Both the position numbers and the translations under genes were made by a program. Source: Nocardioides aromaticivorans (GTDB lineage: Bacteria > Actinomycetota > Actinomycetes > Propionibacteriales > Nocardioidaceae). From it: a stretch of DNA of 64,000 nt. The stretch covers positions 496,001 to 560,000 of the forward strand of contig NZ_JACBZM010000001.1 in assembly GCF_013408525.1 (NCBI RefSeq), given 5' to 3'. Below the pieces are notes generated by a model. The model saw nothing but the letters and a program-made list of their open reading frames with translations, was not told where the DNA came from and ran no database searches. Positions 23,144 to 57,324 of the stretch are shown piece by piece; positions within the stretch are counted from its first letter, which is position 1; each line of letters opens with the position of its first letter.

Positions 23144-23216
23144 TACCCCCGACCGGATTTGAACCGGCGTTACCGCCGTGAGAGGGCGACGTCCTAGGCC
23201 GCTAGACGACGGGGGC
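23144..23216 (-). tRNA. tRNA-Glu (anticodon CTC)
   Basis: A 73-nt cloverleaf. The acceptor stem is GCCCCCG/CGGGGGT, the D arm is TCTAGCGGCCTAGGA, the anticodon loop is CTCTCAC with anticodon CTC (reads GAG), and the T arm is GCCGGTTCAAATCCGGT. CCA is not encoded: TAC follows. It is on the same strand as tRNA-Gln 190 bp upstream and as gltX. Confidence 0.95.
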
Positions 23217-23405: not shown

Positions 23406-23480
23406 TGGCTGGTCTACTAGGACTCGAACCTAGACTAACTGGACCAGAACCAGTCGTGCTGCCAATTACACCATAGACCA
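23406..23480 (-). tRNA. tRNA-Gln (anticodon CTG), with encoded CCA
   Basis: Acceptor stem TGGTCTA/TAGACCA, D arm GGTGTAATTGGCA, anticodon loop TTCTGGT with anticodon CTG (reads CAG), and T arm CTAGGTTCGAGTCCTAG. The 3' CCA is encoded (23406-23408), unlike in the neighbouring tRNA-Glu. The U1-A72 acceptor pair is typical of tRNA-Gln. Confidence 0.95.
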
Positions 23481-53863: not shown

Positions 53864-55471
53864 TCAGCCCACGTGGTGGCGCAGCAGGCCGTAGGTCAGG
53901 CCGTCGACGAGCGCCTCCCACGACGCCTCGATCATGTTCGCGCCGACGCCCACGGTGACCCAGGAGGACTCCCCGTCGCTGGTCTCGATCAGGACGCGGG
54001 TGATCGCGTCGGTGCCGTGGCCCTGGTCGAGGATGCGGACCTTGAAGTCGATCAGCTCGAACTTCGCGATCTCCGGGAAGGCCTGCACGATCGCCGAGCG
54101 CAGCGCCTGGTCGAGCGCGTTGACGGGGCCGTTGCCCTCGCCCGTGACGACATAGCGGACGTCGGCGGCCTTGAGCTTGACCGTCGCCTCCGAGACTGCC
54201 TCCTCCCCCGGCTGCGCGTGGGTGAGGGTCTCGGTGATCACGCGCCAGCTCTCGACCTCGAAGTACGACGGCCGGTGACCCTCGGCCTCCTCGATGAGGA
54301 GCAGCTCGAAGGAGGCGTCGGCGGCCTCGAAGGTGTAGCCGCGGGACTCCATCTCCTTGACCCGGGCGGTGACCCGGTTGACGACGTCCGGCGAGCCGGA
54401 CAGGTCGAAGCCGAGCTCCTTGCCCTTGAGCTCGATCGACGCGCGGCCGGCCATCTCCGAGACCAGCAGGCGCATGTCGTTGCCGACGCCGGCCGGGTCC
54501 ATGTGCTGGTAGAGGTCGGGGTCGACCTTGATCGCGCTGGCGTGCAGGCCGGCCTTGTGCGCGAAGGCCGACGTGCCGACGTAGGGCTGCCGGGCGGCGG
54601 GCGGCACGTTGGTCACCTCGGCGACGGCGTGGGCGATCCGGGTCGCCTCGGTGAGCAGCCCCGGCGGCAGCACCTGCCTGTCGAGCTTCAGCTCGAGGTT
54701 GGCCACGACGTTGACGAGGTCGGCGTTGCCGGTGCGCTCGCCGTAGCCGTTGATGCAGCCCTGGATGTGGGTGGCGCCCGCGTCGACGGCCGCGAGGGTG
54801 TTCGCGACGGCGAGGCCCGTGTCGTTGTGGCAGTGGATGCCGACCCGGACCTGCGCGGTCTCGAGCACGTCGTGGACGACGTCGGAGACCCAGCCGGGCA
54901 GCATGCCGCCGTTGGTGTCGCACAGCGCGATCACCTCCGCCCCGGCGTCGTACGCCGTGCGGAGCACCTCGAGCGCGTAGGACCGGTCGAGCTTGTAGCC
55001 GTCGAAGAAGTGCTCGGCGTCGAGGAACACCTGCTGCCCCTCGGCCCGCAGGTGGCTGACGGTGTCGCGGACCATCGCGAGGTTCTCCTCGAGCGTGGTC
55101 CGCAGCGCCTTCTCGACGTGGCCGACGTGCGACTTCGCGACCAGCGTGACCACGCCCGCGCCACTGTCGCGGAGCGCCGCGACCAGCGGGTCGTCGGCGG
55201 CCTGGACGCCCGCGCGGCGGGTGGCGCCGAAGGCCGCGAGCCGCGCGTGCTTGAGGTCGAGCTCGGTCGCCGCGCGCCGGAAGAACTCGGTGTCCTTCGG
55301 GTTGGCCCCCGGCCAGCCGCCCTCGATGTAGCCCACACCCAGGCCGTCCAGGTGCCGCGCGATCGCGAGCTTGTCGGCGACGGTCGGGTTGAGGCCTTCC
55401 TGCTGCATGCCGTCGCGCAGGGTCGTGTCGTAGACGTGGAAGGCGCCGTGGAGGTCGAGCTGCTGGTTCAT
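53864..55471 (-). CDS. cimA: (R)-citramalate synthase
   Basis: A 535-residue HMGL-like enzyme condensing pyruvate and acetyl-CoA to citramalate, the threonine-independent entry to isoleucine. VYDTTLRDGMQQEGLNPTV is at about 12-30, then GGWPGANPKD, VGIHCHNDTGLAVANTLAAV and GCINGYGERTGNADL. The C-terminal 140 residues form the LeuA-type allosteric domain (LKAADVRYVVTGEGNGPVNA), where isoleucine usually inhibits. GGWPGANPKD and overall length favour the CimA/LeuA2 branch over true LeuA. A leader peptide and terminator precede the gene. Confidence 0.92.
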   Translation of the reverse strand: MNQQLDLHGAFHVYDTTLRDGMQQEGLNPTVADKLAIARHLDGLGVGYIEGGWPGANPKDTEFFRRAATELDLKHARLAAFGATRRAGVQAADDPLVAALRDSGAGVVTLVAKSHVGHVEKALRTTLEENLAMVRDTVSHLRAEGQQVFLDAEHFFDGYKLDRSYALEVLRTAYDAGAEVIALCDTNGGMLPGWVSDVVHDVLETAQVRVGIHCHNDTGLAVANTLAAVDAGATHIQGCINGYGERTGNADLVNVVANLELKLDRQVLPPGLLTEATRIAHAVAEVTNVPPAARQPYVGTSAFAHKAGLHASAIKVDPDLYQHMDPAGVGNDMRLLVSEMAGRASIELKGKELGFDLSGSPDVVNRVTARVKEMESRGYTFEAADASFELLLIEEAEGHRPSYFEVESWRVITETLTHAQPGEEAVSEATVKLKAADVRYVVTGEGNGPVNALDQALRSAIVQAFPEIAKFELIDFKVRILDQGHGTDAITRVLIETSDGESSWVTVGVGANMIEASWEALVDGLTYGLLRHHVG

Positions 55472-55510: not shown

Positions 55511-55541
55511 CAAAACAAAAGCCTCCCGGGGTACGAGAGGC
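55511..55541 (-). terminator. Attenuator terminator before cimA
   Basis: On the minus strand, GCCTCTCG-TACCC-CGGGAGGC (one wobble) is followed directly by TTTTGTTTTG, a textbook intrinsic terminator, 39 bp before the cimA ATG and inside its own leader. Placed before the gene, it can only serve to attenuate. Confidence 0.85.
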
Positions 55542-55542
55542 T

Positions 55543-55568
55543 GCGCGTCCGGGATGCTCCGGACGCGC
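55543..55568 (-). promoter_or_regulatory. Pause/anti-terminator hairpin in the cimA leader
   Basis: Perfect 10-bp stem GCGCGTCCGG / CCGGACGCGC with a 6-nt loop. It begins in the last base of the leader-peptide stop codon, so a ribosome stalled on the final Ile codons would cover its 5' arm. Its 3' side TCCCGG can alternatively pair with CCGGGA in the terminator. Confidence 0.65.
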
Positions 55569-55597
55569 TAGGTAATGATCGAGGTGATGGTGCTCAC
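55568..55597 (-). CDS. Candidate Ile/Thr-rich leader peptide of cimA (9 aa)
   Basis: GTG AGC ACC ATC ACC TCG ATC ATT ACC TAG encodes (M)STITSIIT: three Ile and three Thr codons in nine. It is immediately followed by the hairpin at 55543-55568 and the terminator at 55511-55541, then cimA. This is the layout of ribosome-mediated attenuators. No strong ribosome site is seen before the GTG; CACACT lies 6 nt upstream, so the leader may be leaderless-translated. It is 36 bp after the upstream kinase stop. Confidence 0.7.
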   Translation of the reverse strand: MSTITSIIT

Positions 55598-55632
55598 GAG
55601 GCCAGTGTGCCACGTCGCGCGCGGCCGCCCCG

Positions 55633-57324
55633 TCACAGTCCGAAAGGACCGCTCGACCACGGGATCCAGCTGACGCCCTGTCCCGCGACCAGCACGCCGA
55701 GGACCGCCGCCACCGCGAGCAGGCCGGCGCACAGGAACAGCCACGGCAGCGTGCTGCGGCAGGCCGGGAAGAGCACCCGGGCGACCGGCGAGCGGAACCG
55801 GCTGCCGCCGGGACCGGACCACAGGGCGACGCCGAGGGTGGCCCCGCATGCCATCAACGTGCCCGGCACGTCGACGGCCAGCGCGTAGCAGATCAGCCCC
55901 GCCGCGAGCCCCAGGCCGGCGCTCCACGCCACCAGGACGACCGTCCCGGTCACGGCCCGGACCAGGTGCCACGGGCTGGTGGCGAGCCAGCGCAGGGCGT
56001 CGTACCACTTCGCGCCGCGGACGGTACGACGCTGCGCGACCGCCGACGCGGCCAGCGAGCCGGCACGGAGCAGCCACACGGCGAGCACGACGAGGAGGGC
56101 GGCCACCCACGGGGCGGCCGCGAAGCCGGCGCCGAGGGCGACGGCACCCGCACCGATCGCGGTCCAGCGACGCAGCCGCTCGGGCAGCGGCGCCTGCGGC
56201 TGGGGCGCGAACGGGGCCTCGGGGTCGAAGCCGTTGGCCTGGTCCCACTCCTGCTCCATCCGCCGCATCGCGTCGGGAGCCGGCGGCGCGTCCTGCCGGA
56301 GCGTGACCGGCGGCGGGGGCTGCGCCGGCCGGGAGGTCGACACCGGCTCGGGCATCGTGCGCGGCGTCGGCGGCGCGGGCGGAGCCGGCACCACGGTCGG
56401 CGCGTCGGGGGCACCGGCCTGGGCGGCGAGCGCGAGCGGCAGCGTGAAGTCGTCCTGCTCCGGCGCGGGCGGCCCGTCGAACAGGGCGCCCGGCGGCGGC
56501 ACCGGCGGCAGCTCGGGGCGCGTGCTCAGCGGCCGCAGCCAGGCCAGGACCTCGTCGAGGAGCGGTCGCTCCAGGGGGTCGGGGTGGAGCGCGGCGGCGA
56601 GGACGTCGGCCATCGGCCGCGGGATGCCGGAGAGGTCGTGCTGCCCACGGCGGGTGCGGTCCATGACCGCCATCGCCGGGCCGCGGCCGTAGGGGGCCCG
56701 GCCGCTGGCGGCGTACGCGACGGTCGCCGCCCACGCGTGCACGTCGGCGGCGGGGGTCGCCTCGTCGCCGTACAGGATCTCGGGGGCGAGATAGCCCGGC
56801 GTACCGAGCAGCCAGCCGGTCTGGGTCAGCCGGACGTCGTCGGCGACGCGGGCGAGCCCGAAGTCGATGAGGATCGGCGTACGACCCTCCATCAGCACGT
56901 TGCCCGGCTTCACGTCGCGGTGCAGGACGCCGACGGCGTGCACGGCGGCGAGACCCTCGGCGAGGCAGCCGGCGAGCCAGTTCAGGTCGGACCCGTCGAC
57001 CGGGCCCTCCGTGGCGACGTGCTCGTGGAGCGAGAGCCCCGGCACGTAGCGGGTGACGACATAGGGCACGTCGGCCCACGGGTCGGCGGCGAGCATCTCG
57101 GCCACCCACGGGCTGCGGATCCGCGTGAGCGAGCTGACCTCGCGGGCCAGCCGGCCGCGCGCCTCCTGGTCGCCGACGATCTGCGGACGCAGCACCTTCA
57201 GCGCGACCCGGCGCCCGTCCGAGCCCCGCGCCAGGTGCACGATGCCCATGCCGCCCTCGCCCAGCTTCGTCAGCAGGGCGTAGTCGCCCACCCGCACAGG
57301 GGTGGGGCCGGGCTGGGTCGTCAC
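55633..57324 (-). CDS. Serine/threonine protein kinase with a C-terminal membrane region
   Basis: A 563-residue Hanks-type (PknB-like) kinase. The glycine loop is KLGEGGMGIVHLARG at about 19-33, the ATP lysine is in VALKVLRP, the catalytic loop is VLHRDVKPGNVLM, then DFGLARV and LGTPGYLAPEILYG. A Pro-rich linker (about 280-380) joins four to five membrane helices. There is no PASTA or other outer sensor; the chain ends with short loops, so it probably senses within the membrane or through partners. GTG start at 57324 has TAGCCT 6 nt upstream. Confidence 0.93.
   Translation of the reverse strand: MTTQPGPTPVRVGDYALLTKLGEGGMGIVHLARGSDGRRVALKVLRPQIVGDQEARGRLAREVSSLTRIRSPWVAEMLAADPWADVPYVVTRYVPGLSLHEHVATEGPVDGSDLNWLAGCLAEGLAAVHAVGVLHRDVKPGNVLMEGRTPILIDFGLARVADDVRLTQTGWLLGTPGYLAPEILYGDEATPAADVHAWAATVAYAASGRAPYGRGPAMAVMDRTRRGQHDLSGIPRPMADVLAAALHPDPLERPLLDEVLAWLRPLSTRPELPPVPPPGALFDGPPAPEQDDFTLPLALAAQAGAPDAPTVVPAPPAPPTPRTMPEPVSTSRPAQPPPPVTLRQDAPPAPDAMRRMEQEWDQANGFDPEAPFAPQPQAPLPERLRRWTAIGAGAVALGAGFAAAPWVAALLVVLAVWLLRAGSLAASAVAQRRTVRGAKWYDALRWLATSPWHLVRAVTGTVVLVAWSAGLGLAAGLICYALAVDVPGTLMACGATLGVALWSGPGGSRFRSPVARVLFPACRSTLPWLFLCAGLLAVAAVLGVLVAGQGVSWIPWSSGPFGL

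Follow-up and report, generated by a model that had tools for sequence, protein, structure and literature searches.

The product of cimA, citramalate synthase, catalyzes the first committed step of isoleucine synthesis and is the entry to the threonine-independent route to this amino acid. In the 64,000-nucleotide stretch of Nocardioides aromaticivorans DNA that was analyzed (the window), a cimA gene is preceded by a short reading frame with isoleucine codons, a hairpin and an apparent intrinsic terminator. The locus raises the question of whether isoleucine supply sets the expression of this gene, and by what means. Because cimA is an engineering target for citramalate and isoleucine, a leader that limits its expression would be of practical weight. 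A first-pass annotation proposed a leader-peptide attenuator of cimA that responds to isoleucine. This proposal is supported by conservation and by the matching of codons to genes, and we consider it very likely that the element is an isoleucine-sensing attenuator of cimA, by whichever route it acts.

Architecture and conservation of the cimA leader

The relevant features lie on the minus strand in the order kinase-like gene, leader frame, hairpin 1, intrinsic terminator, U-rich tract and cimA. The controlled gene (53864 to 55471) encodes a protein of 535 amino acids, identified by its match to TIGR00977 (621.9 bits versus a cut-off of 450). The leader frame (55568 to 55597) reads GTG AGC ACC ATC ACC TCG ATC ATT ACC TAG, with the GTG at 55597-55595 and the stop codon at 55570-55568, and its nine codons encode fM-STITSIIT. 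The isoleucine codons ATC ATT at positions -3 and -2 before the stop (55574 to 55579) are assigned as control codons from codon counts in the genus and in a second set of leaders described below; an additional isoleucine codon, ATC, is at -6. Hairpin 1 (55543 to 55568) is a perfect 10-bp helix with arms GCGCGUCCGG/CCGGACGCGC and loop AGCATC, and its first base is the G of the leader stop codon. The frame and this hairpin are both as first annotated. The intrinsic terminator hairpin (55520 to 55542, loop TACCC) follows with a gap of 0 nt. It too had been recognized, although as an 8-bp stem; the predicted fold has 9 bp, including one G-U pair. The U-rich tract UUUGUUUUG occupies 55511 to 55519, and the cimA ATG at 55471 is 39 nt beyond its end at 55511, a distance that had been noted correctly. 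Both hairpins are assigned by folding and covariation, and the terminator also by a terminator pattern.

Upstream of the frame, the -10-like promoter hexamer CACACT (55604 to 55609) ends 6 nt before the leader start codon. The protein kinase-like gene (55633 to 57324), given for context only, is on the same strand as cimA, with 35 nt between its end and the leader start; all its matches to kinase models fall below the curated cut-offs. Elsewhere in the window are two tRNA genes, at 23144-23216 and 23409-23480 (-), that match Rfam RF00005. No other family was found by an Rfam search of the window. For the leader region, the best Rfam score was that of isrB (14.9 bits versus a threshold of 35), with no family at its gathering score, and eight related loci gave zero family matches.

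The 131-nt leader region has a predicted folding energy of -50.4 kcal/mol (z = -3.67), and 1 of 200 shuffled sequences folds equally well. The terminator pattern occurs once in the 3 kb examined, versus 0.4 ± 0.6 times in shuffles. For the window sequence alone, the moderately unusual fold is no more than moderate evidence, and conservation decides. Conservation in close relatives had been set in advance as a check on the first-pass annotation, and its outcome favors that annotation. Among 147 genomes of the genus, 135 carry cimA, and the start of the gene is on the contig in 133 of them (G031 and G143, which are cut by contig ends, were dropped). The leader is upstream of cimA in 127 of these 133 genomes; leaders were read in 126 genomes, and G081, with its stop codon inside hairpin 1, completes the number. 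Counts here and below span related genomes and are not independent samples.

An alignment (A1) of 54 of 56 distinct leaders, with L035 and L041 omitted for their differently spaced isoleucine codons, has two-sided changes in 15 of 19 base pairs. The number of cells with such changes is 139, versus 37.2 ± 6.0 in shuffled alignments, and none of 500 shuffles reaches it. In hairpin 1, 93.8% of cells are paired and 8 of 10 pairs have two-sided changes; the corresponding values for the terminator are 91.5% and 7 of 9. The relatives in A1 were selected with a T-run pattern, and their U tracts are thus non-independent evidence.

Two hairpins form the minimum-energy fold in 155 of 157 leaders, with an intrinsic terminator between frame and gene. 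The loops of hairpin 1 vary freely in sequence and length, and its register is constrained: it starts 11 nt past the first nucleotide of the isoleucine pair in 141 of 155 leaders. The gap between hairpin 1 and the terminator is 0 to 1 nt in 142/155 leaders and, among the matches listed for the model R2 introduced below, in 104/106 leaders from the class of the source organism; gaps as wide as 4 to 5 nt occur in some other classes.

Leaders with quite different hairpin sequences were found in other families and in another class, Acidimicrobiia (L098, Ilumatobacteraceae; L105, Acidimicrobiaceae; L107, Acidimicrobiales). These leaders would place citramalate synthase under amino-acid-sensing attenuation in many actinobacteria. 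The leader is not universal, since its pattern is positive in 58 of 110 CimA-matching loci. The pattern-negative CimA loci include two from Streptomyces, many from actinobacterial MAGs, and the non-actinobacterial ones.

The six Nocardioides genomes without a cimA leader are G027, G035, G042, G099, G109 and G145. The upstream sequences of the six were inspected, those of G027 and G109 and, for the other four, loci L008, L009, L011 and L014. These four loci, whose CimA proteins are 93-96% identical, are natural deletion variants. By eye, a box of the AGACT type is found approximately 9-10 nt upstream of the cimA ATG in L008, L009 and L014; that of L008 is the sole one of the three that matches the pattern [CT]ANNNT.

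Control codons, start of the RNA and codon-swapped relatives

In Nocardioides leaders (n = 126), isoleucine is found at codon -2 in every case, at -3 in 115, at -4 in 88, at -5 in six and at -1 in one. These leaders were picked by patterns or by a model (R1) that contain positions -3 and -2, whereas the counts at -1, -4 and -5 are independent of selection. The codon at -2 is ATT in 115 of the 126 leaders, and this is a rare synonym that accounts for 2 of 467 isoleucine codons when 26 Nocardioides cimA genes are counted. Attenuators are known to favor sensitive synonymous codons (PMC1183508). The leader had been annotated as an "Ile/Thr" leader, and the isoleucine half of this label stands: isoleucine is locked in position, but threonine, although found at -5 in 44/126 leaders and at -1 in 14/126, is not. 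Threonine sensing was rejected on this basis.

Among the 117 genus leaders whose start could be placed, 98 are 8-10 codons long. In 117 of 125 genus leaders, a [CT]ANNNT hexamer precedes the start codon and ends 6 nt (65 leaders) or 7 nt (52 leaders) away from it, versus approximately 1-2 expected per distance in shuffles, and a longer -10-like pattern is present at 6-7 nt in 116 of 121. In Streptomyces lividans, the TAnnnT motif and the transcript start are 6.3 nt apart on average, and several leader peptides described there are leaderless (PMC8079986). Because the -10-like box is 6-7 nt before the leader start, the RNA probably starts at the leader start codon, making the leader leaderless, as judged from promoter spacing.

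R1 was built from leaders chosen by an isoleucine-pair and T-run pattern, which biases its matches at positions -3 and -2 and in the U tract. A codon-blind model, R2, omits the codon pair and models nothing upstream of codon -1. It has matches in 202 of 296 genomes of the source organism's class. Among the matches listed, we examined 107 (30 loci and 77 fetched sequences), a set that leaves out nine rows (genomes or second copies) and three chosen rows; some R2 matches, namely the source window and G231, belong to its training set. Gene names were assigned with NCBIfam models for reference proteins (L165 being partial) and, for all others, by tblastn against these reference proteins.

Among these listed matches, 84 are before cimA, 13 before ilvB and 7 before leuS, and 3 have an unassigned gene. 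A TAG directly before hairpin 1 and an assigned gene are found together in 79 of the 107. Within these 79, isoleucine is present at -3/-2 in 60/60 cimA leaders versus 1/19 others (p = 7e-17), and Leu-Leu in 6/6 leuS leaders versus 0/73 others (p = 4e-9). All 13 ilvB leaders in the listed set contain valine, with GTA counted 13 times. The remaining 24 cimA leaders all have Ile-Ile, for a total of 84/84, and the seventh leuS leader also has a leucine box (7/7). In the 60 listed cimA leaders with TAG before hairpin 1, isoleucine is at -2 in 54, at -3 in 53, at -4 in 24, at -5 in none and at -1 in one. Cognate codons in these matches generally fill -4 to -2, and at -1 they occur in only 1/60 cimA, 0/13 ilvB and 0/6 leuS leaders. 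This swap of codons among cimA, leuS and ilvB on one scaffold amounts to a natural experiment in codon sensing. That codon identity tracks the gene on a similar scaffold appears to be the strongest evidence for sensing through translation of these codons.

The source genome itself contains a second copy, detected with R1 (G000:C1:378116-378192 (-), locus L147), in which CTC CTT GGA TAG stands directly before leuS; the identity of LeuS is supported by TIGR00396. The same architecture with leucine codons precedes leuS in ten other genomes of the genus that were fetched for comparison. A search for further copies in the source genome gave only the cimA and leuS elements as strong matches, the next R2 matches having E = 0.2 or worse and being mostly partial.

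The stop codon is not placed uniformly. Among the matches listed, four cimA leaders have TGA or TAA before hairpin 1, and in 20 of 84 the stop codon is inside hairpin 1, with the isoleucine pair always 11 nt before the GCGC of the hairpin. Since this distance holds wherever the stop lies, the isoleucine box is set relative to hairpin 1 and not to the stop codon. In both designs, a ribosome that completes the leader is predicted to end on hairpin 1. Leaders with an internal stop include L290-L292, L317, L323, L342 and L354, and one such peptide ends ...IIIVRRAG*.

Ribosome position, proposed mechanism and alternatives

At the level of sequence, the comparisons demonstrate the isoleucine codons with their fixed register, the presence and abutment of the two hairpins, and the matching of codons to genes. 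Positions of the ribosome were then simulated by masking, with six masks tested whose sizes are textbook approximations. In this model, hairpin 1 has a mean pair probability of 0.99 without a ribosome. The value is 0.77 or 0.44 when the first or second isoleucine codon, respectively, occupies the A site, 0.09 when codon -1 does, and 0.03 when the stop codon does. A ribosome stalled on the isoleucine pair would reach only approximately 2-5 nt into the 5' arm of this hairpin, and the earlier claim that such a stall masks the arm is not supported at the modeled positions. The mean pair probability of the terminator exceeds 0.93 at every mask, and the computed ensembles hold both hairpins together. 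Hairpin 1 thus responds to ribosome position and the terminator does not, which means that hairpin 1 can tell stalling from completion. According to the model, hairpin 1 can form, at least partly, with a ribosome on the isoleucine codons and cannot with one at the stop. The codons that hold isoleucine are those at which a stalled ribosome is predicted to leave at least part of hairpin 1, and codon -1, which is nearly free of isoleucine, is where modeled stalling already disrupts it (from 0.44 to 0.09).

We propose that the attenuator senses charged isoleucyl-tRNA by way of the ribosome. Transcription would begin at or beside the leader GTG, where a ribosome would load. When isoleucine is plentiful, the ribosome would pass ATC ATT to the stop codon, open hairpin 1 and keep its 5' arm covered; with hairpin 1 open, the terminator would form and cimA would be off. 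When isoleucine is scarce, a ribosome stalled on the isoleucine codons, 8-11 nt upstream of hairpin 1, would allow this hairpin, or its upper half, to form. Being 0-1 nt from the terminator, the formed hairpin 1 would prevent the terminator from closing inside RNA polymerase, and cimA would be transcribed. Starvation should lead to read-through in an amino-acid attenuator, and hairpin 1 is therefore best taken as the antiterminator. Because there is no conserved arm-to-arm pairing and boundary bases could be shared in very few leaders, abutment remains, hence the proposal that hairpin 1 blocks the terminator in the exit channel. In lineages with the stop codon inside hairpin 1, the ribosome would read through the 5' arm while the distance from isoleucine codons to hairpin is kept, and this arrangement fits the same logic.

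What we infer here is the leaderless start, the stalling and, above all, the blocking of the terminator by abutment. For the whole chain, from isoleucine stall through formation of hairpin 1 and the block of the terminator to expression of cimA, we see roughly an even chance. Against it is the finding that, in 152 leaders, no conserved base pairing makes hairpin 1 and the terminator exclusive. A stall at codon -2 would also melt the lower half of hairpin 1 and loosen the abutment, and the joint formation of both hairpins in the ensembles and the wider gaps of other classes count against the chain as well. The strict abutment, combined with the lack of a conserved pairing antiterminator, makes steric antitermination directly testable.

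The same abutment would suit an arrangement with the opposite sign, in which hairpin 1 and the terminator stack as one strong terminator and an isoleucine stall prevents hairpin 1, weakens termination and releases cimA. A stall at -2, where isoleucine is invariant in the genus, would cover approximately 5 nt of the 5' arm, as this arrangement needs. We nevertheless regard it as unlikely. A terminator with 9 bp of its own and a U tract should presumably need no help, and isoleucine is nearly absent from codon -1 (1/126), where stalling blocks hairpin 1 best. Moreover, a ribosome at the stop codon also blocks hairpin 1, so cimA would be released when isoleucine is plentiful unless the ribosome exits very fast. 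The first-pass annotation instead let an isoleucine stall mask the 5' arm of hairpin 1 and free its 3' side to pair with the terminator as an antiterminator. The two segments it named, UCCCGG and CCGGGA, are both present and pair strongly in the window: the 3' side of hairpin 1 pairs with the 3' side of the terminator at -15.9 kcal/mol, versus a mean of -9.3 with terminators of other species, and the minimum-energy fold of the window switches to this pairing with nucleotides 1-19 masked. At masks 16 to 25, the pair probability of the terminator also drops under 0.5 in 2 to 5 of the 155 leaders. However, the pairing is not conserved. Across 152 distinct leaders, its energy is -8.79 kcal/mol with a leader's own terminator and -8.84 with foreign ones, own being better in 69/152, and shuffled sequences at -8.37 do hardly worse. 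For all four arm-to-arm pairings tested in these leaders, own and foreign energies are about equal, whereas both positive-control helices pass. The switch in the window occurs at only one of the six masks, that of 19 nt, which places the ribosome on the ACC codon and not on isoleucine, and 97-100% of the 155 leaders retain a terminator pair probability above 0.5 at each mask. We therefore rejected a base-pairing antiterminator as a conserved feature, and this account of the switch is quite improbable; UCCCGG:CCGGGA may be a local addition in the window. The mutually exclusive antiterminator on terminator bases that defines the classical trp type is likewise not found in these leaders, the window being exceptional at one ribosome position.

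Two further explanations dispense with amino-acid sensing or with the reading frame. The hairpins could be an ordinary terminator of the kinase-like gene, which is co-directional and ends 35 nt upstream, but a conserved promoter-like box lies between that gene and cimA, the codons fit the downstream gene for three kinds of gene, and the rare ATT recurs at -2. A terminator serving the upstream gene alone was rejected on these grounds, and we give the explanation hardly any probability. Alternatively, hairpin 1 could bind a protein or small molecule in the manner of a riboswitch, with the frame incidental. A covarying element of two hairpins could be an aptamer, and the ilvB-II motif was initially suspected to be one (PMC10272879). 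The variable loops of hairpin 1, the swapping of control codons with the gene and the lack of an Rfam match make this idea scarcely credible as well.

Relation to described attenuators and wider occurrence

The ribosome-mediated antitermination by hairpin 1 that we favor belongs to a familiar kind of control. In the trp attenuator of Escherichia coli, read-through or termination depends on where the ribosome stands among the control codons. The cimA leaders would work alike, but without a conserved antiterminator of the 2:3 type that shares the 5' arm of the terminator. The trp scheme is described in PMC1183508. In actinobacteria, attenuation by leaders has been described for genes that include trp, ilvB, leuS and trpS (PMC1262725; PMC8079986), and a 2005 survey lists conserved structures only for Trp, Cys and Leu pathways, in addition to T-boxes at ileS (PMC1262725, in the text available). 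Attenuation of this kind is thus known for ilvB and leuS. Against this background, the present case adds cimA as a target gene and a scaffold of two hairpins in which no antiterminator is shared. No description of cimA attenuation was found in the full-text literature searched, a body to which most subscription papers do not belong.

The ilvBNC operon of Corynebacterium glutamicum has a "fast" attenuator, the ilvB-II motif, that is leaderless, with transcription starting one nucleotide from the leader start codon (PMC11857589; PMC10272879). Its control codons are CUU and GUA, and its antiterminator hairpin directly adjoins the terminator (PMC11857589). If hairpin 1 is the antiterminator, cimA leaders have adjacent hairpins too (142/155; 104/106). 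The C. glutamicum hairpins share a boundary trinucleotide, whereas cimA-type leaders could share one base in just 3/155 cases, and sharing of boundary bases was rejected for them. The systems also differ in that the C. glutamicum leader has a third hairpin that overlaps the frame, while in the cimA leader hairpin 1 follows the control codons, and in the gene, which here is cimA.

In S. lividans, the short leader peptides LeuL2 (leuS) and IlvL (ilvBHC) are leaderless, carry their control codons close to the C-terminal end and are followed by one or more hairpins and a U run (PMC8079986). The ending of IlvL, ...ILVLGKRVG*, resembles that of cimA leaders L290-L292 (...IIIGKRV*), and LeuL2, ...RLLLSEPR*, resembles leuS leader L386 (...LLLTEPR*). 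The leuS attenuators of S. coelicolor and S. avermitilis are similar in design (PMC1262725). Streptomyces leuS leaders, compared here by their description, are classed as classical, with antiterminator and terminator hairpins (PMC8079986; PMC1262725); a cimA leader is absent from the available text of both sources. The M. tuberculosis ilvB1NC leader has an upstream frame with branched-chain amino acid codons and a terminator; in the model put forward for it, a ribosome at the stop codon masks the antiterminator, and stalling lets it form (PMC13236596). This is the logic proposed for cimA. The leader differs in its length of 166 nt and in the mutually exclusive folds that its authors propose, and the main text of that paper, as available, makes no mention of cimA, leuS or leuA.

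Tentatively, and with less confidence than an even chance would imply, these leaders may represent a phylum-wide, codon-swappable class of attenuators in Actinomycetota. In such a class, hairpin 1 would form only upon ribosome stalling and, abutting the terminator, would block it sterically without shared bases, and a box of two or three codons 11 nt upstream would carry isoleucine codons for cimA, leucine codons for leuS, and valine or leucine codons for ilvB. The citramalate route to isoleucine would form one branch of this regulon, sensed through rare synonymous codons in a leader with a leaderless start.

A scan of the phylum with R1 found matches in 71 of 396 genomes, at loci that include ilvB, leuA and leuB genes. 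Several of these loci have unusual gene contexts. Leaders with branched-chain amino acid codons at L130, L135, L139 and L160 precede ilvB operons in which an additional gene comes first. The extra genes of L135 and L160 are related to each other and presumably resemble isochorismatase, and those of L130 and L139 encode an uncharacterized protein of approximately 95 amino acids. At L142, a leader of this type, with CTG ATC ACC TAG, precedes a gene for an unknown protein of approximately 92 amino acids; the frame after it is prephenate dehydratase-like, with a best score of 245 bits that is below the model cut-off of 359. In L125, L134 and L137, leuB, which encodes 3-isopropylmalate dehydrogenase, is preceded by leaders with an isoleucine box (the L125 protein scores 457 bits versus a cut-off of 393). 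The leuB product also serves the citramalate route to isoleucine.
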